Virus record (IMG/VR): IMGVR_UViG_3300032058_000131
Location: 1 to 27,147 of that record
Direction: 5' to 3' (one strand)
DNA: 27,147 nt
DNA from: a virus
Part shown: positions 2,587-17,255 of the stretch, one piece after another
How the letters are laid out: every line of letters begins with the position of its first letter
Position numbering within the stretch: position 1 is the first letter of the stretch
The notes under the pieces: generated by a model
Seen by the model: only the letters and a program-made list of their open reading frames with translations
What the model was told of the DNA's origin: nothing
Database searches by the model: none
Made by a program: the position numbers and the translations under genes

Positions 2587-2864
2587 TATATTCGCCGCCT
2601 GTTGTTATCAATAATATTGATGAGGCGCTTGCCTTGTATAATGGGAGTTTGCCGTGGGAGGAAGACCCCATTCGCGCTCGCAATGTGCTTGCCGCGCTTG
2701 AGTATATTCTGTTGAATCGTCCGCAGCAGTCTCAACTGGCGCAATTGGGTATGAGTTTCGAGCGTGTACGGGAAGAGCTTGACAGGGTACGCGGGTATCT
2801 GGGCTTGGCTGATGTTGAACACAAGCATTACTTTCAGCGGGTTAATACTACCGGCATTGTGTAA
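2583..2864 (+). CDS. Small helical protein after TerL; gpW-like head-tail joining candidate
   Basis: This encodes 93 residues, with its ATG overlapping the TerL stop (ATGA) and its own stop overlapping the endolysin ATG (TAATG). After a short extended N terminus the middle is helical (ARNVLAALEYILLNR), followed by a turn and a second charged helix (FERVREELDRVRGYLG). In lambda-like gene order the small gene between the large terminase and the portal is gpW, which stabilises packaged DNA and completes the head. The size and two-helix layout fit that kind of protein, but no diagnostic residues are visible and the assignment rests on synteny. Confidence 0.45.
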   Translation: MIYSPPVVINNIDEALALYNGSLPWEEDPIRARNVLAALEYILLNRPQQSQLAQLGMSFERVREELDRVRGYLGLADVEHKHYFQRVNTTGIV

Positions 2865-3430
2865 TGACTATACTTATAGGTGTATGCGCCATGTTGAACA
2901 TGTTGAACAAGGGAACGATAAACGATTGTGTAAGATATGTTATTCAGAACGAGGGTGGATATTCAAACCATCGTTCTGATTATGGTGGTGAAACGTATTG
3001 GGGTATAACGAAGGCTTTTGCTCAAGAGAATGGTGTACCTTGGCCGCCAAGCAGAAGGGATGCAGAACAGGCATACGAAGCTATTGGGAAGAAGTTTGGT
3101 GTTTTTTATCTTGATGGTCCTACGGCGAAGTTTCTTTTAGATGGCTGTGTATTGTTCGGGTTCAGGCGTTTTATCGGGTGGTTTCAGGGCGCGATAAATG
3201 CGTGTTGTGGTAGTAGTCTTGTGGTGGATGGTGTTATAGGCCCGAAGACTGTAGCCGCTTATTCTGCTTGTAATAAACGTGTTGTTATAAGGCGTTTACA
3301 TGAACATGTAAGGTCTTATCATATTGCGGTTGTGTCTCGTGACAGAAGTCAGTTGGCGTTTTTACGCGGGTGGCTTGTACGTGCAGAGAGCAGATACAAC
3401 GAGTTTCTGAAGGGGCTTGAAAATGGCTGA
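2864..3430 (+). CDS. Endolysin, GH108-type N-acetylmuramidase with peptidoglycan-binding C terminus
   Basis: This enzyme cleaves the glycan backbone of peptidoglycan to lyse the host. The 188 residues contain the GH108 signature ENEGGYSNHRSDYGGET-like region at 28-44, with catalytic Glu E30 in NEGGYS, then YWGIT at 45-49. A C-terminal domain carries VVDGVIGPKTVAAY at 120-133, typical of the PG_binding_3 module. The length matches the family (about 170-190). ATG 2864 overlaps the previous stop. The N terminus also contains an in-frame tandem 9-base repeat (ATGTTGAAC twice at 2891-2908) giving alternative starts at M10 and M13. No convincing signal peptide is present, so release should need a holin. 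Its place between TerL and portal is unusual. Confidence 0.88.
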   Translation: MTILIGVCAMLNMLNKGTINDCVRYVIQNEGGYSNHRSDYGGETYWGITKAFAQENGVPWPPSRRDAEQAYEAIGKKFGVFYLDGPTAKFLLDGCVLFGFRRFIGWFQGAINACCGSSLVVDGVIGPKTVAAYSACNKRVVIRRLHEHVRSYHIAVVSRDRSQLAFLRGWLVRAESRYNEFLKGLENG

Positions 3431-4370
3431 TCAGATTATAACATTATTGCGCCGTAGTGGTATTCGACCGGAAACGCTTGAAACGTATAACATGCAGCAG
3501 AGTACACGACTGGATCGTGTACTTTATTGCAGAAAGTTCTATAAAGACAGCATGCTGTTTCGCACCATTGTTAACCGTATTATTGATATGGTTAATGTAT
3601 ATGGTGCTAATATTGTAAGTGCTCCCGATATTGTGACGAACGAGTTTCTTGTAAACGCATTGAGGGAGTATCTGCTTACCGGTGAAATTCTGTTTTACGT
3701 ACCGACGAATCAGCTGCTTGAGTCCGAGCGTGTGGAGTACGAGGTTGATGAAGAGACAGGAGAAGTGACGCGTGTTATGTTTGATGGGGAATTTGAGATT
3801 GACTATGACGGCATAATTGGGGAGTATGAGTACTTACGTCCGTCTGCTGTACGTGGGGAGCCGCCGTTTGCGGTGGTGTTGCCGTGGGTTGTTCAGATCA
3901 GCTCTCTCATGTATGCACAGATTCGTGCAGCTGAAATCGGCTCCCGTTTGCTGGCGCGTATTGTGACGGGTGTTGGTGGTATTAATTCTGAAGACCCGGA
4001 GTTGCAGCTAAGTGAGGATACGTATATTTTGCGTACAAATAACCCACAGGATGCTATTGACTTTCCGAAGTATCAGCCCGCTGATTTTACGGTGCAGATG
4101 AAGACACTGCTTCGTCAGGTTTCAGCGGCATGTGGTATGCCGTATGAGGTTCTGATGAGTGATTTCACGGAAGCGAATTTCAGTCAATCTAAAGCGGCGT
4201 TTATTTCAGCGCGATATGAGATTAATCGATATCGCGGGTTTATAGACAGATTTGTTAACCGTATTGGTAATACCGTTATTGAATGGCCGGATGTTGAGAG
4301 TCTTGATTTTCTTGATCAGGCGAAGGCTGCTGCGATTATGAGTAATATAAACACGGTGGAGGGTGCATGA
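3423..4370 (+). CDS. Portal protein, lambda gpB family (short)
   Basis: This forms the portal ring at the capsid vertex, through which DNA enters and to which the tail joins. The 315-residue protein matches the second half of lambda-type portals: a proline-tryptophan element leading into a long helix (LPWVVQISSLMYAQIRAAEI), the NPQDAIDFPKYQPADF region, then the diagnostic CGMPYEVLMSDFTEANFSQSK and FIDRFVNRIGN. ATG 3423 is preferred over the in-frame TTG 3417 because AGGGG lies seven bases upstream. It overlaps the endolysin end by eight bases. Lambda gpB has 533 residues, so the N-terminal clip/wing portion is much reduced. The frame is intact, so this appears to be a compact version and not a broken gene. 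Confidence 0.82.
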   Translation: MADQIITLLRRSGIRPETLETYNMQQSTRLDRVLYCRKFYKDSMLFRTIVNRIIDMVNVYGANIVSAPDIVTNEFLVNALREYLLTGEILFYVPTNQLLESERVEYEVDEETGEVTRVMFDGEFEIDYDGIIGEYEYLRPSAVRGEPPFAVVLPWVVQISSLMYAQIRAAEIGSRLLARIVTGVGGINSEDPELQLSEDTYILRTNNPQDAIDFPKYQPADFTVQMKTLLRQVSAACGMPYEVLMSDFTEANFSQSKAAFISARYEINRYRGFIDRFVNRIGNTVIEWPDVESLDFLDQAKAAAIMSNINTVEGA

Positions 4371-4371
4371 T

Positions 4372-4455
4372 ATGTTTGAATTTATTGTATCTGTTTCCGG
4401 TGTTGTGTTTATTCTATATTTGATTATTCAGTTTATTTTAGGAGGTATATACTGA
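4372..4455 (+). CDS. 27-residue single-pass membrane peptide
   Basis: A tiny ORF between portal and protease encodes MFEFIVSVSG followed by a strongly hydrophobic stretch (VVFILYLIIQFILGG). This is one predicted transmembrane helix covering nearly the whole product. It has a very good Shine-Dalgarno (GGAGGG at 4358-4363, eight bases before ATG), and its TGA overlaps the next ATG (TGATG). Its 3' end contains the AGGAGG used by the protease gene. It may exist mainly for coupling, or may act in lysis with the other small membrane proteins; neither is proven. No family is recognised. Confidence 0.55.
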   Translation: MFEFIVSVSGVVFILYLIIQFILGGIY

Positions 4456-5453
4456 TGAAATACTGGGCGAGCATAGAGTTGCCGGAAGGTGATATTCCGG
4501 TTGCTTTAGCCGGGAGAGGTGGTGCAGCTCCATCATGGTTTTACCGTGATGTTGATGGTGTAAGGGAAATTGGCATAACTGGGGCACTGTATCCGGTTGG
4601 TGATGAGGCGCTTGGTGTTATTGGATACGACTGGATACTTGACGCGATTAATGGGGTCGACAGTGTAAGGCTGTTTATTGATTCGCCCGGTGGTGTGGTG
4701 CATCCGGCTCTTGAGCGTATTATGCGTCGGTTGCAGGGTATTGATTCTGAGGCTATTATTACCGGCACATGTGCGTCGGCAGCGTATTTCATTGGCCGAA
4801 GCTGTAAGAGGCTTATTAGCGACGGTTATACGACAGAGGTTGGCGGCATAGGCGCGTATGTTTTGCTGTGGGATTTTGGTGAAGCCAACAAGAACAGGGG
4901 CGTGAGGCCGATTAAGATTAAAATCGGTGAAATGAAGGGGATAGGAGCCGGTGGAGAGTACACACAGGCTGAAATAGATGAGGTTTATCGTGAACTGAAG
5001 GATATTTTTGATGGCTACATGAATATACTTGGGAGCAAGTATGCACAATTTGCGGACGGTCGGGTTTACACTGCGGTAAGGGCCTTTGAGATGGGTCTTA
5101 TTGACGGTGTAACGCCGGCAATTTACACGGGAGAAGATGCTATGGCTAACGATGCTGATGATGTGATTGTGGAGCAGGCTGATGCTTGCGAACAGGAGAC
5201 ACGGGCTGAAGCTTGTGAAGTAGAAATGAAAGCGGAAGAACCGGTTAAAGATGTTGAGCAGAAGGCAGAGGAACCGGTGGAAGAGAAGGTTATGAAGAAG
5301 CTTCCGGTTCGTCGGGTAAGTGACGACTTTGCACCGGAAAGGCTTTTCTATAAGCTTCTGGAAATTCATAAAACACGAACGGCTGCGTGGGCCGCGCTGG
5401 AGCGAATTAATCAGGAAGCGTATATGAAGTTGCGTAACAAATTGCATTTTTAA
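4455..5453 (+). CDS. Capsid maturation protease, peptidase S49 (lambda gpC-like), with C-terminal scaffold region
   Basis: This protease degrades scaffold and itself during prohead maturation. Residues about 35-220 form a ClpP/SppA-like S49 domain: the SPGG strand-turn at 77-80, the nucleophile S108 in TCASAAY, and the likely general base K161 in GEMKGIG, followed by the helix YTQAEIDEVYREL. Residues 225-285 are acidic, low complexity and contain KAEEPV twice. The last about 45 residues are basic and helical (ERINQEAYMKLRNKLHF). AGGAGG lies at 4440-4445, nine bases before the ATG. The S49-acidic-basic layout matches lambda C, whose 3' part is separately translated as scaffold Nu3; see the nested feature at 5142. 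Confidence 0.88.
   Translation: MKYWASIELPEGDIPVALAGRGGAAPSWFYRDVDGVREIGITGALYPVGDEALGVIGYDWILDAINGVDSVRLFIDSPGGVVHPALERIMRRLQGIDSEAIITGTCASAAYFIGRSCKRLISDGYTTEVGGIGAYVLLWDFGEANKNRGVRPIKIKIGEMKGIGAGGEYTQAEIDEVYRELKDIFDGYMNILGSKYAQFADGRVYTAVRAFEMGLIDGVTPAIYTGEDAMANDADDVIVEQADACEQETRAEACEVEMKAEEPVKDVEQKAEEPVEEKVMKKLPVRRVSDDFAPERLFYKLLEIHKTRTAAWAALERINQEAYMKLRNKLHF
5142..5453 (+). CDS. Nested scaffold protein started inside the protease gene (Nu3-like)
   Basis: In frame with the protease, ATG 5142 (protease residue M230) is preceded by GGGAGA, with GGAG at 5130-5133 and eight bases of spacing. It starts right after the S49 domain ends. The predicted product has 103 residues: an acidic, Glu-rich, probably helical N-terminal half and a basic C-terminal helix. 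That is the charge layout of scaffolding proteins whose C terminus touches the capsid protein. Lambda C/Nu3 has the same nested arrangement, and no separate scaffold gene is present between protease and major capsid protein here. The internal start is an inference from the strong ribosome site and synteny. Confidence 0.6.
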   Translation: MANDADDVIVEQADACEQETRAEACEVEMKAEEPVKDVEQKAEEPVEEKVMKKLPVRRVSDDFAPERLFYKLLEIHKTRTAAWAALERINQEAYMKLRNKLHF

Positions 5454-5477
5454 CTGTAAAACGAAAGGGTTAATAAT

Positions 5478-6416
5478 ATGGCTATTTCTTGGAGTACTAA
5501 TGCTGAAATTAGGCGGGATTTGACTGATGCTTTCATTGAGGCTGCTGCACCGGCGGCAGCGTATCGGGTTGTGTTTTCGCCGTTGCCTGTTCCGTCTCGT
5601 GTAGGAGCGATTAAGGTTGCACCATTCAGCAGTATTGCTGTTGCACCGACTTCAATTACGCGCAGCCCCAATACAGAGTATACTGAAGGTACACTGTCCC
5701 TTACTTCTGTGCTGTATGAATGCACGGATGTGGGCCTTCAGATGTCGATGGATATTGCTGAGGAATATCCGGTTAACATCGAAATGGCTATGGCTCAAGC
5801 ACTTCGCTTTAAGCTGGAGTCAGCGGCGGAGGCTCTTGCTGTAAACGTGTTGTTTAATTCGACCACAGGGGCTGTACGTGCTGCGAATAACAATATTCTA
5901 GCTGTGACTACGGCATGGAATGCAGTTGGGAGTACGCCTATTGCAGATGTGGCGGCGGCTTATGAGGTGGCCACGGCCGCATCCGGTGGTATTACCCCGA
6001 ACACGCTGGTGCTTTCTCCGGCGGCGTTTTTGGCGTTGAAGGGGCACCCGGATATTATTGCCCGTTTACCCGTCACCGTTCTTCGTGGTGATAATGAGAT
6101 TGAACAGGCTCTTGCCGGTGTGTTTGGAATTCAGAACATTATTGTGAGCCGCGTGGGCACGCCCTCCGGTTATGCTTGGCCTGCCGGTACTGCCCTTCTT
6201 GCGGTAACGGCTCCGGCCAATTCTCTTGCCTCAACGCCAGCCGCGTGTCGGCTTGTTTATTGGTCTGAAGACGGTGACATCAGCCGCGAGGGTTGGGTTG
6301 TTGAGTCGTATGACAAGATTGAGACACGCTCGCATGTTATCCGTGCTCGTCGTAACGCGGGTCATGTTGTGATTTCGCCGCGCGGTCTGTTTGGCCTTAC
6401 CGGAGTCGTCTCGTAA
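5478..6416 (+). CDS. Major capsid protein (HK97 fold)
   Basis: This is the shell subunit of the head, 312 residues. The central part matches a widespread prophage capsid family: a long helix (MAMAQALRFKLESAAEALAV), a strand and loop ending in TTAWNAVGSTPIADV, then GGITPNTLVLSPAAFLALKG and HPDIIARL, followed by FGIQNIIVSRVG. Pro-Asn-Thr-Leu-Val-Leu followed by HPDI is characteristic. The N terminus lacks a long coiled-coil delta domain, in keeping with a separate scaffold. AAAGGG at 5464-5469 stands eight bases before ATG. It directly follows the protease gene. No obvious separate decoration protein gene (lambda gpD type) is present. Confidence 0.88.
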   Translation: MAISWSTNAEIRRDLTDAFIEAAAPAAAYRVVFSPLPVPSRVGAIKVAPFSSIAVAPTSITRSPNTEYTEGTLSLTSVLYECTDVGLQMSMDIAEEYPVNIEMAMAQALRFKLESAAEALAVNVLFNSTTGAVRAANNNILAVTTAWNAVGSTPIADVAAAYEVATAASGGITPNTLVLSPAAFLALKGHPDIIARLPVTVLRGDNEIEQALAGVFGIQNIIVSRVGTPSGYAWPAGTALLAVTAPANSLASTPAACRLVYWSEDGDISREGWVVESYDKIETRSHVIRARRNAGHVVISPRGLFGLTGVVS

Positions 6417-6760
6417 TGTTGTTACAGGGGCTGAAAAATATTTGGCCCTTCATGCGTTCGGTGTGTGGTGGTGTAGTTCGCACATATACGGATTACACCA
6501 CCGCCACCTATAGCGAATGGGAGGCGATTGTGTTCCCGGGGTATGCATCAACGGGTATTTCTGCTTCTCTTGGTTTTACAGAAGAAGCGGATTATATATG
6601 TGTTATCAGAGCCCCATACTATTCAACACGTGCGGCTAAATACGCCAGTATAAGCAATGAGAATCACAGTAGAAAATACGTTATCAAAAGGTGGTCTGAC
6701 GTTGTGGGCGGCTTTTTGATCGTTACACTTGTAAAAACAAGGAGTGAAGAGGCGTTATGA
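6416..6760 (+). CDS. Neck protein candidate (head-tail connector), unknown family
   Basis: This encodes 114 residues, with its ATG overlapping the capsid stop (TAATG) and its TGA overlapping the next ATG (ATGA). The sequence is a mix of short strands and loops rich in Tyr, Ser and Thr (TYTDYTTATYSEWEAIVFPGY, in part), with no nucleotide or metal motif. Between the major capsid protein and the tail tube, siphoviruses normally encode the adaptor, stopper and tail-completion proteins. This first gene of three is therefore a likely connector component. Family membership is not recognisable by eye. Confidence 0.4.
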   Translation: MLLQGLKNIWPFMRSVCGGVVRTYTDYTTATYSEWEAIVFPGYASTGISASLGFTEEADYICVIRAPYYSTRAAKYASISNENHSRKYVIKRWSDVVGGFLIVTLVKTRSEEAL

Positions 6761-7146
6761 ACATAAACACCATTGCTGGCGATATACTTACGACCGCATC
6801 TATTGTTTTCAATGTACCTGTTGGTGCTTTTGGTACATATAAAGGTTCAGAAGAAAACGGTTTTATATTGCGTTTAGATGGCTATGCAGCGGAGAAGCGT
6901 CAGATTACCGGAAACGAGTGTTTATTGGCCGTTAATGTTATTTTAACAGGCGTATACAGTGTTCGTATTAATCAGGACATGAACATGTATGGGGTAGAGT
7001 GTGACAAGTCAGTTTCATTTGTCAATGAAGTGATAAAGGCGCCCGGTGTAAGTGAAGTGATGATAAGGGATGTTGAAATTGTTGGTGATGGTGATTTTGC
7101 GGTGTTTACATTTTCATTTGTTGTAAACGGGTTAGTAAATGCGTAA
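6757..7146 (+). CDS. Neck/tail-completion candidate, unknown family
   Basis: This encodes 129 residues, starting at the ATGA overlap with the previous gene and overlapping the next by eight bases. Predicted strands alternate with helices, ending in a strand pair (VEIVGDGDFAVFTFSFVVNG). A helix-loop with LLAVNVILTGVYSVRINQ precedes it. Ending in a two-strand hairpin after a helical middle resembles small tail-terminator proteins (lambda gpU-like) that cap the tail tube, and the position two genes before the tail tube fits. This is synteny-based and not a recognised motif. Confidence 0.4.
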   Translation: MNINTIAGDILTTASIVFNVPVGAFGTYKGSEENGFILRLDGYAAEKRQITGNECLLAVNVILTGVYSVRINQDMNMYGVECDKSVSFVNEVIKAPGVSEVMIRDVEIVGDGDFAVFTFSFVVNGLVNA

Positions 7147-7942
7147 AGCTTTTGTTGACATAAAGATAAACAATAAAGATGCGCGTCAGGCTGCATATCA
7201 CTCAAATGTGAAGAAGAGCGGCCCCAAGAATCAGTTGCGTAATAATTTGCGTGTTATTGGTGTGGCGTTCTGGAATTGGTTGCGGCTTGCAATGCATAAA
7301 GACACTGGCGCGGCAGCTAAATACACAACGATTAGCGTAAACAGTGCTGGTAATAAATATTGGATAAGGTTTGCGCCGCAACGTATAAAACGTGATGAGG
7401 ACCCGAAGCTTCAAGAGGCTATAAGAGAGTATGAGGAGATGAAGGCTAAGGGTATGATTGATGATATACCGAAGATAGTACGCGGTCGTCTTGAGAGTTA
7501 TAAGGAATATGTTGTAGATTACTGGTATATTGCGACTGGTTATGGCGGTGTAAGAGAGGAACTCTTGCGTTTATGGGATGATAGACTGGCTAACGTTATA
7601 TGGCCCCGATGGAGCAGGGACATGTGGGCGCTACAGTGTTGGGAGCTATTTGGTGGTGGTGACAGAAAAGAATCTATAAAACTTGCTGCTGCGGCCCTAA
7701 ATCTTCCGCAAAAGGTTTATGTACCGAAGTATTACCCGACGAAAGACCCGGAAAAAATTCTGAAGCTGTTACGCAGGAAGAAGTATTTCCAGATAATTAG
7801 TAAGCGTCTTGAGGACAGAAAAGTACAGTGGGAACACAGAAGGGCTACAAGAGCAAGATTAAACAGAATGATTCGGGCGGACAGCAAATATGCGACACCG
7901 CAATTAAGGAAGAGAATGGTTAGGTCTATAATCAATGTATAA
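7139..7942 (+). CDS. Basic protein between neck genes and tail tube, unknown function
   Basis: This encodes 267 residues from ATG 7139. It is strongly basic, with Lys/Arg clusters at both ends (PEKILKLLRRKKYF; QWEHRRATRARLNRM), and its middle is rich in Trp (DRLANVIWPRWSRDMW, CWEL). The N-terminal third has the strands AKYTTISVNSAGNKYWIRF. It sits where tail-completion or head-closure proteins are normally found but is longer than the usual 100-150 residues, which suggests an added domain. Strong positive charge could mean contact with packaged DNA at the neck, but that is inference. No family is recognised. Confidence 0.4.
   Translation: MRKAFVDIKINNKDARQAAYHSNVKKSGPKNQLRNNLRVIGVAFWNWLRLAMHKDTGAAAKYTTISVNSAGNKYWIRFAPQRIKRDEDPKLQEAIREYEEMKAKGMIDDIPKIVRGRLESYKEYVVDYWYIATGYGGVREELLRLWDDRLANVIWPRWSRDMWALQCWELFGGGDRKESIKLAAAALNLPQKVYVPKYYPTKDPEKILKLLRRKKYFQIISKRLEDRKVQWEHRRATRARLNRMIRADSKYATPQLRKRMVRSIINV
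7904..7932 (+). promoter_or_regulatory. Possible promoter before the tail-tube gene
   Basis: A perfect TATAAT at 7927-7932 lies 17 bases downstream of TTAAGG (7904-7909), only a 3/6 match to the -35 consensus. It would give a leader of about 19 bases into AGGAGG and the tail-tube ATG, a highly expressed gene. It lies within the end of the preceding coding region, so chance occurrence is quite possible. Confidence 0.25.
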
Positions 7943-7957
7943 ACAGGAGGTTTAAAT

Positions 7958-8470
7958 ATGTCTTTGCCTACACCTACAGGAACAATTCTGTATTACAGCA
8001 CCAATGGCACCGATTGGACGGCATTCGGTTGTGTGACCAATATCTCGTATAAAGAGAGCACGAAAACGAGTGAAGTTGATCTTATCAATAACGACACTTC
8101 ACAATGGTCGGGAACGACTGTAACAAGTCGAACCAGAAGCTTTGAGGTTTCCGGGCTGTTTAAAAACACGGGACCGAATGGTGGTGTTATTTCCGGTTCC
8201 ACGCTGACGGGGACAAACAATACGGTTCCCAGCTCCGGTATGTCGGGAGCCGAGGGTGTATTTAAGGTTGGTCAGAAATATCGGCTTGCGCTTGCTTTGC
8301 CCGTTACTGATACGAACTACACCGTCATTCGTTTTACGCGTGACGATGGTGAGGTTGCTACCGGTAACGAATTGCGGTTTGTGGTAACCGACCGAAACAT
8401 CACGTTCAGCGGTACTGAGCCGGTTAGCTTTACTATTACGTTTGCCATTGATGCGGGTAGCCTGTGCTAA
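7958..8470 (+). CDS. Major tail tube protein
   Basis: This subunit polymerises into the non-contractile tail tube. The 170 residues are almost all beta strand with Ser/Thr/Gly/Asn loops. It opens with PTGTILYYSTNGTDWTAFG, then NISYKESTKTSEVDLINN, a strand-turn pattern typical of siphovirus tail tubes (lambda gpV N-terminal domain-like). It ends in strands NITFSGTEPVSFTITFAID. It has the strongest ribosome site of the block, AGGAGG ending about seven bases before ATG, as expected for an abundant structural protein. The chaperone pair and tape measure directly downstream confirm the position. No C-terminal Ig-like domain is present. Confidence 0.82.
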   Translation: MSLPTPTGTILYYSTNGTDWTAFGCVTNISYKESTKTSEVDLINNDTSQWSGTTVTSRTRSFEVSGLFKNTGPNGGVISGSTLTGTNNTVPSSGMSGAEGVFKVGQKYRLALALPVTDTNYTVIRFTRDDGEVATGNELRFVVTDRNITFSGTEPVSFTITFAIDAGSLC

Positions 8471-8487
8471 TTGATGGAGTGCTAAAT

Positions 8488-8784
8488 ATGTTTATCAGCA
8501 CATCTGAAAGTAGCGTATTTACAGGGAAATATATTAAGCAGTTGACCATGCGTCAACTACTGAATATTACGGATGCGAAGAAGGCGGACGCCGGTTATAA
8601 TCAGGTGGCTGAAATGGTGTATTTGAGTTATTTCAATGATGCTGCCTGCACCCAACGCATGTTTAACAATGGTGGTGATGCTTTAGATGCATTGCCGCCC
8701 AATATGTTCAATGCGGCCGTGAATGAAGTGATGGTGTTTAACGGAATCTCGGAGGGTAACACTGAAACTGAAAACCCTACCTGA
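8488..8784 (+). CDS. Tail assembly chaperone, short form (gpG-like)
   Basis: This encodes 98 residues from ATG 8488. That start is chosen over an in-frame GTG at 8464 because GGAG at 8476-8479 is eight bases upstream. It begins MFISTSESSVFTGKYIKQLTMRQLLNI and has a helical middle. Proteins at this point, directly before the tape measure, bind the tape measure and recruit tube subunits (lambda G). The zero frame ends in TGA at 8782-8784, just after the A AAC CCT heptamer. A fraction of ribosomes should slip and make the longer form. Identity rests on position, size and the frameshift geometry. Confidence 0.75.
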   Translation: MFISTSESSVFTGKYIKQLTMRQLLNITDAKKADAGYNQVAEMVYLSYFNDAACTQRMFNNGGDALDALPPNMFNAAVNEVMVFNGISEGNTETENPT

Positions 8785-9062
8785 TATTGATAAGGGACGG
8801 CATTGATGCTGATATACCTGTGAATGTTGCCAATGATATATTGCGAAGTTATAGAAGCGACCCGCCTACAAGATACCGTGTTGAGTTCTGGTTATCTTTG
8901 ATTGCGAAGATGATATACAGCGCATTGGGGGGTAAGGGTGAAATGCCGACGCCCCCTTGGTGGACTAAAGAGGAAAAGAAGGCTGACATTGATGCGGTTG
9001 TTGCCGGGCTTAAAATGCTTGGTATAGGTGTTACGATGGGGGATTTTACAGATGCCGAATGA
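8488..9062 (+). CDS. Tail assembly chaperone, -1 frameshift fusion (gpGT-like)
   Basis: Reading 8488-8778 in the first frame and continuing at 8778 in the -1 frame to TGA 9060-9062 gives a 191-residue fusion joined as ETENP/YLILIRDG. The -1 frame (8772-9062) has no ATG near its beginning, no ribosome-binding site before the TTG at 8787, and is blocked upstream by TGA at 8769-8771. Its 94 codons are therefore best explained as the frameshift extension. In lambda, G and GT share this arrangement and both are needed for tail assembly; the T part recruits the tail-tube protein. The end overlaps the tape-measure start by 11 bases. Confidence 0.8.
8772..8778 (+). other. -1 ribosomal frameshift slippery heptamer A AAC CCT
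   Basis: In the chaperone reading frame the heptamer reads A AAC CCT and fits X XXY YYZ exactly (X=A, Y=C, Z=T). After slipping by -1, the tRNAs re-pair on AAA and CCC. The slip has to occur between the -1 frame stop at 8769-8771 and the zero-frame stop at 8782-8784, and the heptamer lies inside that 13-base window. No clear downstream stem or pseudoknot was found by eye. Confidence 0.8.
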
Positions 9063-11304
9063 AATAACACTTGGGTTAAATACGGGGCCAGCCGAATCTG
9101 CTCTTGACAGATTTTCTGGTAAGTTCCGTGCGTTTGCCGGTGGGCTTGGAAGGGCTGCTGACAGCACGAGTGTTATTTCTCAGGCTATGTCAAGGCTCCG
9201 CTCGACGCTTATCAGTTTTGCTGGTGTATATGCATTCACATCTGAAATGCAGAAGATTGACAGCCTAAGAAAATCGGCTGAAGCGCTTGGTGTTTCATTT
9301 GAGAAGCTACAGCAGTATTCGCGCGCCGGCGTGGTTTCGGGTATAGGTAATGTCGAGGGTATTCTTGCCCGGGGCGCCGCGTTTCTTGAGAGGTTGAGGG
9401 CTGGGGAGGAAGACGCAAAAAAGATTGGTCGAGCTCTTGGCGTTGGTGCTGCAAGCGGTATTGAAGACCTTATTCGTGCTGTTTCCTCATCACCCAATAG
9501 AATGATGTATCAGCGTTCTATCTTTGGGCGTGGCCTTGGCGCAAGAGACATAGGAAAGCTTCTGGAAAATGTTGGTGGTGTGAATATAAGTGAAGAATTT
9601 GCCAGATCGATAGAGCAATTTAGAGACTCTGTTTTGCTGTTTCGTGAAACAATTATACGCGATTTGTTGAATGTTGTGCAGCCGCTGTTTTCGCGTGTGA
9701 ACAAAGTTCTTTCCAATGATAAATTGAAATATGCCGCATTTGCTGGTCTTGGTTACTTTGGCTTAATGGGTACGGCTAAGTATTGGCGAAGATTGGTGCC
9801 ACCGGTGCAGAAGGGAGAGTATGGAGGGGCGTTGGCGTTCGGCGAAAAGCTTGTGATGTATCCTCTTGAGAGATTTTTATCTGGAAACCCGCCCTATTCT
9901 TGGGGTGGATATGAATATGTTCGCAATTACAGGAGTTTGAAGAAAGCGCTTAATATACTGAAGGCGACCGGTTTCAGTGAAGATTTTATTGACCGGTTTT
10001 TGAGGACAGTCAACAAGAGTGCTGTGCTGTCGTTTCTTGCGCCAGCGGCTGCTGTTTTTCTTCGCGGTATTGATAAAATTGCAGATGATTTAAAAACCGC
10101 ATCGAGATTGCTTCTTTCCCCAATTGTCAGCATACCGGTGGCGGTTGGGTCTTTCTCGTATGCATTTTATGAGGTGTACCGTTATCGCCTTATAAACATG
10201 CGGTCTATTATGGATAAAATCAGGGGTGGTTTTGAGAAAATAACAAATGCGCTCTCCGTGTTTTCCGGTTTGCTGGATATATTTTCGGAGCCGTTTGTTG
10301 TTGGGTTTAATAAGATTACCGAAAAGATTAAGTCTGTATTGGCTTCCGTTTTTAAGGGGTTTGATTTCAGCGCCGCGTTTGGCGAGATGGAAGCGCCAAG
10401 CATAGCGAAGGGAAACAGGTTAGCAATTGTCAACAAACAATTCAACAGCTTTATCGATGCATTTAATAAGCTTACGGAAAATCTGGAGCCGTTCGATGAA
10501 GCACTGAGGAACATACCGGATTTAAAGCAGAAGGCAACGATAAACACATTTTCTTTAAACAGTCTTCTTGATAATATCAACCGCCTGCTTGATTTTTACA
10601 ATCAGATTGAGCGGGGCTTGTTGACACCGGAGCAGCAGGATTCGCTTGATAACGCTGTCGAGAGTTTGATTAAACAAAGGGAAGCAGTAGAAAATGCGTT
10701 GAAGGCAATAGATACCGGCGTATATTACAAGGTGTTACTTCGCAATATACACAAGGTTGATGTTGATGAAATAAAAGGCCCGCAAGAAATTCTTGATGCA
10801 TATAATGATGCGATAGGCGTGCTGAATAAGGTATTCGAGAAGGGACTCATCAGTGAAGGTGCATACTCCGCTGCGGCAAGGGAGATATGGGAAAAGTATT
10901 CACAAATGTGGGACAATCTTCCGGAAAACGTAGACATGAAGAAGGCACAGGAAGAATGGGATAATATGCAGAAGGCAATTCAGGAACAATGGGAAAGTCT
11001 TATGGGTTCAGCGCGCAATGTTATTGAGTCCGTAGACCCGATTGAGCGTTTCAAGGGGCGTGTTTACGATGCTGTGAAGGCTTTCATAAATGGGCTGATT
11101 GATGAAGATATTCTGATGCAATATGCATCGAATGAGTATCGTGATATATTCAGGTCTGGTGAAGGTGCAACGTCTGCACTGGTTGGTCAGCAGGGTGTAA
11201 CGTCATATTTTGCGAATGTATTCACGTCGATTCGTGTGCCGATATGGTCAATTCAGCAGCTGCTTCAACAGATAGTTGTGAACGGGGTGTATCTGAAAGG
11301 GTGA
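9052..11304 (+). CDS. Tail tape measure protein
   Basis: This encodes 750 residues from ATG 9052, preceded by GGGGGA at 9038-9043. An in-frame GTG at 9028 is rejected because it has no ribosome site. The protein sets tail length and is ejected with DNA. It begins with a typical tape-measure N terminus (GLNTGPAESALDRFSGKFR), followed by long Ala/Leu/Lys/Glu helices, a hydrophobic central region around LAPAAAVFLRGI and LLLSPIVSIPVAVGSF, and a helical C-terminal half with repeated acidic-basic helices (TPEQQDSLDNAVESLIKQ). At the usual about 0.15 nm per residue the tail would be around 110 nm. No lytic transglycosylase or peptidase motif was seen. Confidence 0.88.
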   Translation: MPNEITLGLNTGPAESALDRFSGKFRAFAGGLGRAADSTSVISQAMSRLRSTLISFAGVYAFTSEMQKIDSLRKSAEALGVSFEKLQQYSRAGVVSGIGNVEGILARGAAFLERLRAGEEDAKKIGRALGVGAASGIEDLIRAVSSSPNRMMYQRSIFGRGLGARDIGKLLENVGGVNISEEFARSIEQFRDSVLLFRETIIRDLLNVVQPLFSRVNKVLSNDKLKYAAFAGLGYFGLMGTAKYWRRLVPPVQKGEYGGALAFGEKLVMYPLERFLSGNPPYSWGGYEYVRNYRSLKKALNILKATGFSEDFIDRFLRTVNKSAVLSFLAPAAAVFLRGIDKIADDLKTASRLLLSPIVSIPVAVGSFSYAFYEVYRYRLINMRSIMDKIRGGFEKITNALSVFSGLLDIFSEPFVVGFNKITEKIKSVLASVFKGFDFSAAFGEMEAPSIAKGNRLAIVNKQFNSFIDAFNKLTENLEPFDEALRNIPDLKQKATINTFSLNSLLDNINRLLDFYNQIERGLLTPEQQDSLDNAVESLIKQREAVENALKAIDTGVYYKVLLRNIHKVDVDEIKGPQEILDAYNDAIGVLNKVFEKGLISEGAYSAAAREIWEKYSQMWDNLPENVDMKKAQEEWDNMQKAIQEQWESLMGSARNVIESVDPIERFKGRVYDAVKAFINGLIDEDILMQYASNEYRDIFRSGEGATSALVGQQGVTSYFANVFTSIRVPIWSIQQLLQQIVVNGVYLKG

Positions 11305-11308
11305 TGCC

Positions 11309-12379
11309 GTGTCTCGATATATTGATCTCTCTAAGGTTGAAATTCTCTTTCAGGGTGAATCGATGTCGATTGGTACGGCGTCGACAGCTGAGCGAAGATA
11401 TATGATAAAAATAGATAAGAGTGCATTCACAAACGAGATCACAAACAAGAGTGTGTTGCGAATAGAGCACAATGTTAACAATATAACGATAAGACTTTCA
11501 CCTATTGAGATGTTTTATCTTGCCGGGTTAGCTAAAAGCATACAGGATTCCATACAAAGCTCAAATTACAACATATTTAAGACGATACCATATTCAAGGT
11601 TTTACTACAGCGGGTTAAGTCAATCGTTGTATGATGGTTCTATCTTCAATCTTGCGTATTCATACTGTGGTTTTATTGGTACACCGTATTCGTTAAACAG
11701 AATGGATTTACGGTGTTCTAATGTTGATGTTCGATTTATTGATGAAGTATGTATTCTGACGCTTGGTTATTCATTCTTTGGTATGGTACCGTCGAATAAG
11801 TTTGCAACATTCATAATGCCGTATGGTAATGCGCAAAGATATCCAAGCGTATACAGATTCAAGGCCGATGGTGGTGTTGAGCTGAACACGGTTACATATT
11901 CAGGAGACACACAGGTTGCAGAATTGCCGGAAACGTATGGAAGCGAATGCAGGTATAGGGTGCTTGTTATTAATCCGGTGTATCCGGCATATTACCAGTC
12001 TTTTCTTGGTACGGTAAATAATGCGCCCATAAATTGGCTGGATGTTGGTGCTATTATTGGTGAACCGGCCGAACAGGCTGCTGGTCTTATGATTGATAAC
12101 TACAACGTTTCAGTTATTCCGACTGTTTATCCGGTGTATACGGGCTTATGGCCGCCTACCAGCACGACGCTTACATTTCAACCGTCGTATCTATTTCTGC
12201 ATGAATTGGGCGTTGTTGGATATAGAAACAATTCTCTTTCCGCTGACGCTGGGTTCAGGCGGCCGGTGGTTTATGTTAACCCTGAAACCGGTAAGCCGCC
12301 GGAAGACATTACGGTGGGTAATGGCATAGAACAGGCGCTTATTGCGAAACCGGCTGACTGGAGTTTTCTGGCGCAATGA
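11309..12379 (+). CDS. Tail-tip (distal tail/hub region) protein, unknown family
   Basis: This encodes 356 residues starting with GTG 11309, with AAAGGG at 11296-11301 seven bases upstream. It is the first gene after the tape measure, where siphoviruses encode the distal tail protein (Dit-like) or minor tail protein M. The protein is beta-rich with many aromatic residues (FKTIPYSRFYYSGLSQ; YSYCGFIGTPYS; VLVINPVYPAYYQSF) and has no enzyme motif. Its stop overlaps the next ATG as ATGA. A baseplate/tip role is inferred from position; the family is not recognisable. Confidence 0.45.
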   Translation: MSRYIDLSKVEILFQGESMSIGTASTAERRYMIKIDKSAFTNEITNKSVLRIEHNVNNITIRLSPIEMFYLAGLAKSIQDSIQSSNYNIFKTIPYSRFYYSGLSQSLYDGSIFNLAYSYCGFIGTPYSLNRMDLRCSNVDVRFIDEVCILTLGYSFFGMVPSNKFATFIMPYGNAQRYPSVYRFKADGGVELNTVTYSGDTQVAELPETYGSECRYRVLVINPVYPAYYQSFLGTVNNAPINWLDVGAIIGEPAEQAAGLMIDNYNVSVIPTVYPVYTGLWPPTSTTLTFQPSYLFLHELGVVGYRNNSLSADAGFRRPVVYVNPETGKPPEDITVGNGIEQALIAKPADWSFLAQ

Positions 12380-12750
12380 TAAACAGGGGTGATTTAATAA
12401 ATCGAGACAAGCTTAACGGGCTTATTTCAGATACCGCAAATAAGACACGTGTTGTTGGTGGTGGTAAGATTCTACCGAACAACAACCCGGCGGTTAATCA
12501 GATTATTGTAAGCGGTGTTGGCGGCGGTGGTGGTGGTATTACCGTCAAATTCGTTGCAAAGTTACCGCCTATAAATACAACATCCAAAACGCCCCGCTTT
12601 GTGTTCTGGTGTTCTGAGGAGACCGGCAACGAGATTCTTGGGGAGCCGGGTACAGGTGATGATCAGGTGTGGGCGTGGTGGCCCAATGCGCCTTATTATG
12701 TACCGGTACAAAGGTACACCATGAAGAGCGGTTTTCCGGAGGTTGCCTGA
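12376..12750 (+). CDS. Small Gly-rich tail-tip protein, unknown
   Basis: This encodes 124 residues, coupled by ATGA to the gene before and by TGATG to the subtilase gene after. The middle has a run of six glycines (SGVGGGGGG) forming a flexible hinge between a polar N-terminal part with Asn/Lys (ILPNNNPAVNQIIV) and a C-terminal part with several Trp and Tyr (DQVWAWWPNAPYYVP). The glycine hinge and aromatic tip suggest a small structural adaptor for the large protein that follows. No family is recognised. Confidence 0.4.
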   Translation: MINRGDLINRDKLNGLISDTANKTRVVGGGKILPNNNPAVNQIIVSGVGGGGGGITVKFVAKLPPINTTSKTPRFVFWCSEETGNEILGEPGTGDDQVWAWWPNAPYYVPVQRYTMKSGFPEVA

Positions 12751-15700
12751 TGTATACGCTGTATATAAAGGGTTACAGAAACACCAGTTTCACGGATGGG
12801 CCGGCGTCTGAAGATGACGCCGTTATTAATCTGGATGCCAAGTTTGCGTCTTTTGATGTAGCTGAAGGCGTTGATGTGCATTATAACTGCTTGGGCCAGT
12901 GTAAGGTTACATGTGAAACAAGGGAGCAGGCTGAGGCTGTTATTGAGTTGTTGCGCGATTATGAAGTGGTTGCCGTTAATCCGGAGGTTAAATTTCAGGT
13001 AAGGGCGCAGGTACCTAATGACCCGTTGTTTGCCCGTCAATGGCATCTGCAAAATCTTGATGCTACCGTTGCGTGGGATTATATTAAACAGCAGGGTATT
13101 TATCGTATTGGTGTTATAGATACAGGGTTCATGAATATACAGGACCTTAATGAGTCCAGACCGTTTATAAGTGTTTTCTATAAGGGTCAGTTATATACGA
13201 ACGTTGTTGGGGCGGGATGTTTTTCTCTCAACAATAATGTTGAGTTTTATACATCAAGGTCCGATGACAGGAACTGGAAAACGTCAGAGGGTGTTTCTGG
13301 GCTATGGTCTGTTCACGGTTCACACGTCGGCGGTATTATAGCCGCAAGGGGCAATAACAATGTAGGTGTTACAGGTGAAATCTGGAATGTTTACAATACA
13401 AGCGCCGGTATATTTCCGATAAAAGCATTTAATTACGGTTATAAGTATCAGACGCCTTACGGCACCCGTTACACGACAACCGGAAGTTTTGATGCTATAT
13501 ATAACGCTATAGATGTTGCTATTGCGCTTGGTTGTCGCGTTGTAAATATGTCTATCGGCGCATGGGTATCCGCTTTATATGGCGGTGCTGAAATCAAGCA
13601 ACTGTTTGAGGAAAAATTCGAAGCAGCATATAATGCCGCTGGCACCGTGTTTGTGATTGCTGCTGGCAACAGCGCGCTGCCGGTGGTGTCGTCCGACCCG
13701 TTCTTTGGTTTGCCGGTATGGGAGCTTCCAGCCGCATGCACACCATCAACGAACAACGTTATTGCGGTTACCGCTGCAAAAAAAGACAATGATATTGCAC
13801 GATACAGCAACTACCACATGAATTTGTGTGATATAGCCGGCTATGGCGGTGCTGGTTATGATGCAGTAGAAGACGACATACTTTCAACAGCGGGTCAGAT
13901 TGGTCTATGTGAAAGGGGTTATGATAAAAGGGTTGTAACCGTACAGGGTGATAATACCCAGTACATGTTTCTTGCCGGTACATCAATGGCCGCTCCGACG
14001 GTAGCCGGGGCCGCAGCGCTTGTTTTAGCTAAATATTACAGTCTTAAAACACAGCACCTTAATGTAGATACTCTTCGCGCAATATTGCGCGGTACATGCA
14101 AGCGACACAACAGAAACCATTTTTTTACGAATAAGGCCGGTGGTATACTGAATCTTCATTATGCCCTTATGGGTGTTACGGAGTACGCAGCCGGTTATAG
14201 CCCACCGTCCCTTGAGGTGTATATTGATGAAGAAAACAACGTTGGTAACCTATGCATCAAAATAACCAACAACGATACGGCCACGCGTCTGTGTATTGTC
14301 CGCGTTGGTGCGGAACGGTTCTGGTGTCCGTATGATGAGACAACAAATGAAGAGCGCAGTATAGGCGATTTTGCACAATTTTTGAACTCTGGTCAGAACA
14401 CGATATTCAGGATACCGCTTGAAGATTTGGGTGACAATTACGATAAGCTGCTTGGTATAACGGCTTACAGCGTTGATGTTAATTATTGGCCCTTCAGATA
14501 TTCATATTGCAATAAACAGCGCTACACAATTAAGGCTGATTGTCCATCTGGTCTTGGCTTACACCCGGGCGTTGATGTTGTTGCCGTAGACCCGCGCGCG
14601 TTCTTCGGTAACGATATACCAGACTATCGTGAATTTGAAAACCTGTTTGATGCAAATGCTATAGTTCGCCTTTACCGTTACGCCCATTGTGTTCTTACTG
14701 CTGCTTACGGGCGTAATTACCCCCCTGCGGGTGGTATCGTATCATTACCTGATGGTGTTGGTGTTGAAATGACGAAATACGTGCTTCGCAAGGACACAAC
14801 ACAAAGGGATATAATGTATGCGCTTGCTTCATTGCATCGGCAATTATACGACGTTGTGAATAATGGTGTATACCGCTATTCAAGTAAGTTCTCACGGGGC
14901 ATGTGGTATTACCCTATTGATGTGGTAGCGTATTATAACACCGGTAAAATAAAACGTAAGCGCTACAGTGACACATTCTTTCTTGGTTATTGTGACATAC
15001 GCGTTGAGAATATGAAGCGTGTAGTGTATCAGATATTCTCCATGTTACGTTCGCTGTCGTGTTTGTTTACAGTGCTGTATAGCGTACAATGTGCAGACTG
15101 TGGTATGGGTTTGTATACAGCCAGATATTGGGGGAAAACACCGCTATCATTTACGAGCCTGATGCCAGTACCGGTTAACGGCAGAAACTTTTCTGACAGC
15201 GGAAGTAATGATATATGGATTGACGGAATACAGCGCAATTATACATGCGACGGGTCGAATCTAGAGTCAAGCACTGAAACCCCACCACGCTATGTTGGTA
15301 TAACACAGAACACAGCTATGGGGCCGTTAACTGACCTTAGGGCGTTTCCTTTTCACCATCAGAATCACGCCCCATATTTCTTTAAGGCTGGGGGTGTAAC
15401 TGTCGGTGATGTAACGTATTATTATTTACCGTGTCATGTAAAAGAGCTGTCTGACTTGGATAATAAAACAGAAAACGACACCGGTGAACCGACGTATACG
15501 CCGCCAAGTGAAAATTCATGGTACAATCTAACATCGTATCTGGCTGGTGTCTCCCATGGCGATAGACCGAAACCGCCAATCGGAAACGGCACCCGCAGAG
15601 CATTTGGAATTTATGATTCATTAAATGACACAGATGATGGGCTATATGCACATTCTAATATTTGGGATGATGTTCGCGATATAGCTGAATCCTATCGTGG

Positions 15701-17255
15701 TGTTATGTATAAAACATATTCAGCGCTGCGCCTTGAAACCGCCTTGCAGAACGTGCTCCCGCCGATACGCATTAATGTAAGGGTCTTCATGGGGAGCGAT
15801 ACAACAGACTGTTGGCCCCGTGGTCAGACGTCGTCGCCCTTACCACGAAACACCATTAACAACTGGCCTGTAAGACAAACGTTGGCTATAGAAGGTTATT
15901 ATAAAATCTACAAAAATGCGCCTTCCAATGAGAATCTGGTTGTATCGAAAACGTTCAGATATTCACTTGAAGATTTGCCTGCCGGTGTTTCGCAAGTGGA
16001 GAGGCTTGTTGATGTGGTAACCGTTGATATACCGACAGAGGCACCCGGTATTATTGTTGTTGAAACTGGGCTTAACAAGGAATTTGCGAAGTCGCAACCT
16101 AAAGCGACATTTATGCTGCATTATACTGCGTTGCCGGTGCCAGCAAACGGCGGAGATGTTCGACTTGTTTGCGATAGAAGTTATGTTGGCAAACCGTATA
16201 ACCGCGTTCTTGCCGGTGTAGATGACGAGACCTTTGCCGACAATTCAAGGTGGGATTTAAGGTTTTACAATCTTGAAGGGGAGGGGATGGTGCCGTACAC
16301 CGTTGGGCTTTATGGTTATGGTTCATACACAAGAAACTGTTTTATTGGTTTAAGTTATTATGTAGGCGCACATAGAGCCGATTTTATAACCGTTCCAGAC
16401 GTTCGCGGTATGTTTAAAACGACTGCCGAAACGCTGCTTAGTGGTTTGGGTTTGACTGTACAAACAAGAAGTGATGATCGCATTAATGGCGTTGTTTTCC
16501 GGCAGGTGTCAAGCAGCGAAACACCATACGAACCGATTGTTGCTGAAATGATACCACCGCCCGGGTTTGTCTACTCTAAAAATGATACACCGCCTGCAAA
16601 CAGAAAAGTGTTTCTGATTAATCAGGTTGGCGGTACCACAAACAAAATAGAATATAAGCCGGATATGCCAACGTATGACGAACCACTGATTGAAATTGCT
16701 GTACCGTCAGAAAAAAGAAAGATATACACCGCGCCCCACCCCAACAGGCCATATAAAAACGTATCACAAAAGCGTATATGGTGCAGAAACACGGTACTTG
16801 AAAGCGGGCTTACAGAAATGGAGAATTACGTTATCGGTGGTGGTGTATACAGAAAAAACAACAATGGTACGGATTCAGACTTTACCGTTGTATTCCCCCT
16901 TAAATATGATATACCCTTTGTTGTCAGCGCATCACTAAACGGGCAAATATATACGCCGCGCGGTGTTAAGATTGTGTATACTGATATACGGCCAAATGAA
17001 AAAGACTTTATACCGGACCTCATTGGCCTTAAATACGAGGAGGCTCAGAGCGTTGCACAGAATCTTGGAATCGAGATTGCAATATGTGGAGCACGCATGC
17101 ATTATCTAAACAGGGGAGATAGCCCATATATCGTTTCACAATGGCCAGCCCCGGGGGTAAGATACTGGCCTTTTGTATTCCAGAAGATAAAGAAAATATA
17201 TGTTCTGCTTAACTCTTCCACACCGTCACTTACATATCTTGACGTTGATCTATAG
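12750..17255 (+). CDS. Giant tail-tip subtilisin-like protease with PASTA-like C terminus
   Basis: This encodes 1501 residues from ATG 12750; GGAGG at 12738-12742 lies seven bases upstream, and an in-frame upstream extension lacks a start site. Residues about 40-88 resemble an inhibitor-I9-type propeptide, followed by NDPLFARQWHLQN, the usual start of a subtilase domain. The S8 catalytic set is complete: D124 in GVIDTG, H189 in VHGSH, oxyanion N307 in AAGNS, S412 in GTSMAAP. Residues 480-1200 are unassigned beta-rich sequence. Two PASTA-like modules follow, about 1213-1292 (VPDVRGMFKTTAETLLSGLG) and about 1419-1488 (IPDLIGLKYEEAQSVAQNLG). It is the last gene of the tail block. It may cut host surface proteins, process the tail or bind the cell wall; these roles are inferred. 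Confidence 0.85.
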   Translation: MYTLYIKGYRNTSFTDGPASEDDAVINLDAKFASFDVAEGVDVHYNCLGQCKVTCETREQAEAVIELLRDYEVVAVNPEVKFQVRAQVPNDPLFARQWHLQNLDATVAWDYIKQQGIYRIGVIDTGFMNIQDLNESRPFISVFYKGQLYTNVVGAGCFSLNNNVEFYTSRSDDRNWKTSEGVSGLWSVHGSHVGGIIAARGNNNVGVTGEIWNVYNTSAGIFPIKAFNYGYKYQTPYGTRYTTTGSFDAIYNAIDVAIALGCRVVNMSIGAWVSALYGGAEIKQLFEEKFEAAYNAAGTVFVIAAGNSALPVVSSDPFFGLPVWELPAACTPSTNNVIAVTAAKKDNDIARYSNYHMNLCDIAGYGGAGYDAVEDDILSTAGQIGLCERGYDKRVVTVQGDNTQYMFLAGTSMAAPTVAGAAALVLAKYYSLKTQHLNVDTLRAILRGTCKRHNRNHFFTNKAGGILNLHYALMGVTEYAAGYSPPSLEVYIDEENNVGNLCIKITNNDTATRLCIVRVGAERFWCPYDETTNEERSIGDFAQFLNSGQNTIFRIPLEDLGDNYDKLLGITAYSVDVNYWPFRYSYCNKQRYTIKADCPSGLGLHPGVDVVAVDPRAFFGNDIPDYREFENLFDANAIVRLYRYAHCVLTAAYGRNYPPAGGIVSLPDGVGVEMTKYVLRKDTTQRDIMYALASLHRQLYDVVNNGVYRYSSKFSRGMWYYPIDVVAYYNTGKIKRKRYSDTFFLGYCDIRVENMKRVVYQIFSMLRSLSCLFTVLYSVQCADCGMGLYTARYWGKTPLSFTSLMPVPVNGRNFSDSGSNDIWIDGIQRNYTCDGSNLESSTETPPRYVGITQNTAMGPLTDLRAFPFHHQNHAPYFFKAGGVTVGDVTYYYLPCHVKELSDLDNKTENDTGEPTYTPPSENSWYNLTSYLAGVSHGDRPKPPIGNGTRRAFGIYDSLNDTDDGLYAHSNIWDDVRDIAESYRGVMYKTYSALRLETALQNVLPPIRINVRVFMGSDTTDCWPRGQTSSPLPRNTINNWPVRQTLAIEGYYKIYKNAPSNENLVVSKTFRYSLEDLPAGVSQVERLVDVVTVDIPTEAPGIIVVETGLNKEFAKSQPKATFMLHYTALPVPANGGDVRLVCDRSYVGKPYNRVLAGVDDETFADNSRWDLRFYNLEGEGMVPYTVGLYGYGSYTRNCFIGLSYYVGAHRADFITVPDVRGMFKTTAETLLSGLGLTVQTRSDDRINGVVFRQVSSSETPYEPIVAEMIPPPGFVYSKNDTPPANRKVFLINQVGGTTNKIEYKPDMPTYDEPLIEIAVPSEKRKIYTAPHPNRPYKNVSQKRIWCRNTVLESGLTEMENYVIGGGVYRKNNNGTDSDFTVVFPLKYDIPFVVSASLNGQIYTPRGVKIVYTDIRPNEKDFIPDLIGLKYEEAQSVAQNLGIEIAICGARMHYLNRGDSPYIVSQWPAPGVRYWPFVFQKIKKIYVLLNSSTPSLTYLDVDL

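Follow-up and report, generated by a model that had tools for sequence, protein, structure and literature searches.

The described phage proteins closest to the one examined here are the S8-family (subtilase) proteins of T4-like cyanophages (PHROG 9158 and 3677), which are encoded among baseplate genes. In cyanophage S-H38, the S8 gene (QPB07966) is flanked by baseplate genes on both sides. In Synechococcus phage S-SCSM1, gp144 (5932-10164) is 1411 aa long, has its S8 motifs intact and also carries LamG modules; it is annotated as a virion protein according to the record's own note, and 45 virion proteins of this phage were identified by mass spectrometry (PMC9602691). The papers that we found do not discuss the function of these baseplate-region subtilases, either for gp144 or for PHROG 9158. 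In a review of the enzymes with which tailed phages breach cell barriers, the words protease, proteolytic and subtilisin are absent (PMC6116005). Proteolysis of a tail protein is described for Tal of phage TP901-1, whose C-terminal domain is thereby removed (PMC11409707). Pseudomonas phage Lydia gp69 was rejected as an S8 parallel, the likeness being limited to Ig-like domains according to its authors (PMC11946847).

The DNA analysed here, referred to as the window, is a 27,147-base IMG/VR virus record, and the phage is known from metagenomic DNA alone. It encodes a large protein with both a subtilase domain and PASTA modules. The closest solved relatives of the catalytic domain, by sequence and by fold, are EpiP and other secreted subtilases, including CylA; EpiP and CylA are bacterial lantibiotic-leader proteases. 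All of these are stand-alone secreted enzymes and, unlike the window protein, have neither a tail context nor PASTA. In bacteria, kinases and PBPs carry PASTA modules that bind fragments of peptidoglycan.

Genomic context of the subtilase-PASTA gene

The gene is a single + strand ORF coding for 1501 residues plus stop, and it closes a + strand block of head and tail genes with the tape measure upstream. Genes past position 17,255 lie on the opposite strand, with DNA-metabolism genes among them. The relevant features are the following:

850-2586, + strand: terminase large subunit, head/tail block
2864-3430, + strand: lysin with Glyco_hydro_108 and PG_binding_3 (Pfam)
3417-4370, + strand: portal, head/tail block
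4455-5453, + strand: head maturation protease, head/tail block
5478-6416, + strand: major capsid, head/tail block
9028-11304, + strand: tape-measure protein, 758 aa (weak matches to PHROG_167, 1e-7, and PHROG_305, 4e-7)
11309-12379, + strand: 356-aa protein between the tape measure and the subtilase gene, placed as a distal tail protein would be (by position only)
12376-12750, + strand: 124-aa tail-block protein (by position only), stop/start coupled to the subtilase gene
12737-12752, + strand: Shine-Dalgarno GGAGG and TGATG stop/start overlap with the preceding gene (read from the sequence)
12750-17255, + strand: subtilase-PASTA gene, 1501-aa product (ORF list and Pfam)

The start of the gene is credible: its ATG is closely preceded by GGAGG and shares bases with the stop codon of the gene before it. 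Upstream of it lie the weakly matched tape-measure gene and the distal tail gene, the latter recognised by position only; its 356-aa product had no match in Pfam or PHROG. The first-pass annotation had described the gene as the last of a siphovirus tail block. Its place as the last + strand gene was confirmed; the siphovirus label is tentative, as it rests on the weak tape-measure match (1e-7) and on the fact that no sheath protein was recognised among the tail-block proteins scanned.

The lysin gene occupies an unusual spot, the terminase/portal interval, and shares 14 bases with the beginning of the portal gene. The portal itself starts at TTG and, at 317 aa, is short for such a protein. Lysins of the GH108 plus PG_binding_3 type are frequent among phages that infect Gram-negative bacteria, and the one in the window hints at such a host rather than at a thick-walled Gram-positive one; docking on a thick Gram-positive wall is therefore not to be assumed. 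Many window genes have Shine-Dalgarno-like sites, a mild argument against Bacteroidota as the host.

Beyond the S8 domain, the 1501-aa protein had no homologue in INPHARED or PLSDB. No close relative of the whole protein, its S8 region, its middle region, the terminase large subunit or the capsid protein was found in IMG/VR, and none of the whole protein or the middle region in GTDB; both searches required an exact 8-residue match, so that distant relatives may escape them. Records very close to the window were possibly excluded as well. The capsid and tape-measure proteins of the window had no tblastn match in INPHARED. At the sensitivity of these sequence searches, the phage is thus a singleton. 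INPHARED tblastn matches at E 0.003-2 were rejected as relatives; three of them were unannotated fecal contigs with bacterial-looking neighbour genes, and one was a lantibiotic gene cluster. The fecal 'Bacteriophage sp.' records in INPHARED contain genes that look bacterial (SusC/SusD-like, flagellin, glycogen metabolism enzymes).

Domain architecture of the 1501-residue protein

The protein is composed of the following parts:

12750-13007, + strand: propeptide-like N terminus without apparent signal peptide, residues 1-86 (AF2 model)
13107-14111, + strand: Peptidase_S8 catalytic domain, residues 120-454 (Pfam, PHROG, alignment, Foldseek)
14175-16364, + strand: middle region, residues 476-1205, without profile or sequence match
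16386-16640, + strand: PASTA unit 1, residues ~1213-1297, VPDVRGM...A...GL ... PPPGF (Pfam; outer limit by eye)
17010-17216, + strand: PASTA unit 2, residues ~1421-1489, IPDLIGL...A...GI ... QWPAPG (second Pfam stretch; limits by eye)

Residues 120-454 matched Peptidase_S8 (PF00082) in Pfam with an E-value of 7.3e-31 and a score of 108 bits (cut-off 21.8), and PHROG_3677, named 'protease', matched the same region at 1.2e-27. The Asp-His-Ser triad and the oxyanion Asn occur in canonical S8 motifs (D124 in VIDTG, H189 in VHGSHVGG, N307 in AAGNS and S412 in GTSMAAP), and all four residues are invariant in a 15-sequence alignment of the 1501-aa protein with 14 viral S8 domains. The AF2 model built with this alignment has a subtilisin fold (pLDDT 63, pTM 0.69). 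A Foldseek search of the PDB with the S8 model gave EpiP as the best match (~1e-18, probability 1.00), and TM values (target) of 0.7-0.8 were obtained for several subtilisins. By these matches the protein is a member of peptidase family S8, and proteolytic activity is predicted. We rejected 'phage tail sheath subtilisin-like domain', a Pfam name, as a description, since the match was to the true peptidase profile and not to the sheath, and all catalytic residues are present.

The N-terminal 86 residues form strand-strand-helix elements in the AF2 model, at low confidence and in a propeptide-like layout, and had no match to the inhibitor-I9 profile of Pfam. The propeptide-like N terminus of the first-pass annotation is suggestive in its layout and tentative, given the low model confidence and the missing I9 match. 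No hydrophobic N-terminal stretch was found in the protein, so no Sec signal is apparent.

The middle region of about 730 residues (~476-1205) had no match in Pfam, PHROGs, the PDB, INPHARED, IMG/VR or GTDB, and a single-sequence AF2 model of residues 470-1501 reached a pLDDT of 30. Near the C terminus, PASTA (PF03793) was matched in two stretches with an E-value of 4.6e-9 and 36.5 bits against a cut-off of 23.2; in unit 1, the best Pfam stretch was 1213-1253. A DNA pattern for PASTA matched the window at 16392 and none of 100 shuffled versions.

Several claims made from the letters alone were borne out: a 1501-residue protein encoded at 12750-17255, the full S8 catalytic set at the four positions given above, some 700 residues without recognisable match, and two PASTA-like repeats at the end. 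The profile search, named beforehand as a test, found both S8 and PASTA, and structure prediction of the S8 region agreed. Phage homologues of residues 476-1205 were also sought, and none was found in INPHARED or IMG/VR. The analysis thus supports the view that a tail gene encodes an active-looking S8 protease together with PASTA modules.

The cyanophage proteins share with the window protein the intact S8 domain and an N-terminal propeptide-like stretch without an obvious signal peptide, and their baseplate location compares with the tail-block location of the window gene. Their phages, in contrast, are contractile-tailed and T4-like, and LamG or gp10-like parts take the place of PASTA; S-SCSM1 gp144, for example, ends in LamG lectin-type modules. 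The likeness is confined to S8, with a best local E-value of 0.004 in a two-sequence comparison. PHROG 9158 gave a local match only (E 0.011, residues 372-427, around the Ser motif), and the protein falls outside this family, as a match along the S8 part together with the gp10-like C-terminal part was absent.

Subtilases and PASTA modules in other phages

The serine motif of S8, searched for as a DNA pattern, was found in at least 120 IMG/VR viral contigs. For 47 contigs with a clear S8 ORF, same-strand ORFs up to three genes away were collected; among 100 neighbour ORFs scanned, PHROG 677 (baseplate wedge tail fibre connector) and PHROG 9729 (tail fibre) were each matched by 11. One similarity cluster of 27 neighbour ORFs covers roughly half of the 47 contigs, and 7 of its 8 scanned representatives matched tail families (tail-fibre or baseplate). 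PHROG 9158 itself seems to join S8 and connector-type parts in one family, since S8 proteins match its positions 6-581 and connector-type neighbours match its last 110 positions. A member of the tail-adjacent S8 group found 42 INPHARED records, 33 of them from Synechococcus phages. The earlier statement that subtilases are rare as tail-tip proteins was contradicted by this abundance beside tail-fibre and baseplate genes, and also by the baseplate-region S8 genes of T4-like cyanophages and the virion annotation of gp144. Bacillus phages Goe3 and SP-15 and Moorella phage MTATph1 have small S8 genes that lie at a distance from any recognised tail gene.

Some viral S8 proteins are very large. One contig carries two adjacent ones of 1034 aa (3670-6771) and 2358 aa (6780-13853), the latter also with FG-GAP and RCC1 repeats, and a 3139-aa protein on another contig (1912-11328) combines S8 with FGE-sulfatase-like and fn3 domains.

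The PASTA pattern was found in 86 viral contigs. Of the 61 distinct ORFs obtained with it, 54 carried PASTA by Pfam and 9 carried DUF2612, and PHROGs labels many of them as structural, baseplate wedge, or major or minor tail protein. The expectation that PASTA normally sits on bacterial kinases and PBPs therefore did not hold for phages, where the module is widespread on virion-type proteins. We found no paper on this distribution. The proteins of this kind (DUF2612/PHROG 587, PHROG 13163 and 1469 baseplate wedge), which PHROGs names structural, baseplate or tail, have the PASTA unit as the sole part in common with the window protein, and S8 motifs are absent from their ORFs. Because of this distribution, PASTA modules do not by themselves indicate docking on peptidoglycan.

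S8 motifs occurred in the same ORF as PASTA in none of the 61 PASTA ORFs, and PASTA in none of the 50 S8 records searched. Two of 50 PASTA records, both from IMG/VR, also contain S8, but the 321-residue S8 frame is a separate one; these two were rejected as fusions, as the domains lie in different genes and the fetched stretches do not overlap. In this limited sample, drawn with one strict DNA pattern per domain, S8 and PASTA in one chain are unique to the window. The protein is an unusual new combination and no new kind of machine, since other phages already have subtilases linked to tails and, separately, tail proteins that bear PASTA.

Proposed role and alternative readings

We propose, at about even probability, that the gene product is a tail-tip protein (baseplate or adhesion) with a zymogen subtilase that cuts host-surface proteins at adsorption. 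The protein would be made in the cytoplasm without a signal peptide, its N-terminal 86 residues would hold the subtilase inactive, the large middle region would join it to the distal tail, and the C-terminal PASTA modules would extend outward, serving as spacer or for adhesion. During adsorption, proteins at the host surface or near it would be cut by the protease, which would help the tail to reach its receptor or to cross the envelope. The S8 fold, the intact catalytic residues, the PASTA modules, the place in the tail block and the coupled start are observed; presence in the virion, zymogen control, attachment through the middle region and the target are inferred. Besides these observed features and the lack of a signal-like stretch, the clustering of S8 genes of other phages with tail-fibre and baseplate genes, the S-H38 and gp144 examples and the recurrence of PASTA on virion-type proteins favour this reading. 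The missing I9 match, the unassigned middle region, the weak tape-measure match (1e-7) and the restriction of the cyanophage likeness to S8 weigh against it. Attachment to the tail is suggested by gene position. Tal-type lysins of the TP901-1 kind offer a comparison, as they are likewise large, multidomain and enzyme-bearing, and the window gene lies in the corresponding place after the tape measure; the Tal enzyme, however, is a C-terminal cell-wall hydrolase, whereas that of the window is an N-terminal, protein-cutting subtilase, and no Tal or gp27-type match to the protein was found in Pfam or PHROG.

The main rival is that the subtilase mainly cleaves its own chain or a neighbouring tail protein during assembly, so that the tail tip would exist in mature or alternative forms, which we regard as unlikely. 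To our knowledge, few of the proteases that mature phage heads and tails belong to the S8 family, and no cleavage site can be named in the protein, nor are there relatives to reveal one. The propeptide-like N terminus ahead of an intact S8 domain nevertheless fits such processing, for which Tal of TP901-1 is a precedent (PMC11409707). Both surface-protein trimming at entry and self-cleavage are possible. Next comes a non-virion enzyme acting in the host cytoplasm or at lysis, where it would degrade host proteins or aid release, its place at the end of the tail operon being incidental. Small, separate S8 genes away from recognised tail genes do exist in the Bacillus and Moorella phages, and the last position of an operon is one where unrelated genes can be added. 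Those enzymes are much smaller than the window protein with its 1501 aa and two PASTA modules, its start is coupled to the preceding tail-block gene, and a separate lysin gene is already present at 2864-3430; we consider this role improbable.

Two further readings concern the PASTA modules. The protease domain might be a mere scaffold in what is mainly an adhesin docking on peptidoglycan, as the known binding of bacterial PASTA modules would allow. All four catalytic positions are intact, which is unlikely under relaxed selection, and many virion-type proteins have PASTA, those of baseplate-wedge families among them, so that wall binding is not to be assumed; of the readings considered, this one has the lowest probability. 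Ranked above it, and still doubtful, is a reading in which a dormant subtilase on the tail tip would be activated at the surface, be anchored to the cell wall by PASTA and digest envelope proteins, opening the way for DNA. If true, a non-contractile phage would have an entry enzyme based on proteolysis, unlike the tail enzymes known to date, which cut polysaccharide or peptidoglycan.

Tail-associated phage subtilases are a known kind of protein that has been little studied. Their genes lie repeatedly beside those of tail-fibre and baseplate proteins, to which they are apparently fused in PHROG 9158, and one product is recorded in the virion. The window adds a small-phage example with a different C-terminal module, PASTA. 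Should any such protease be active during entry, proteolysis by the virion would be a step of infection that has been overlooked.
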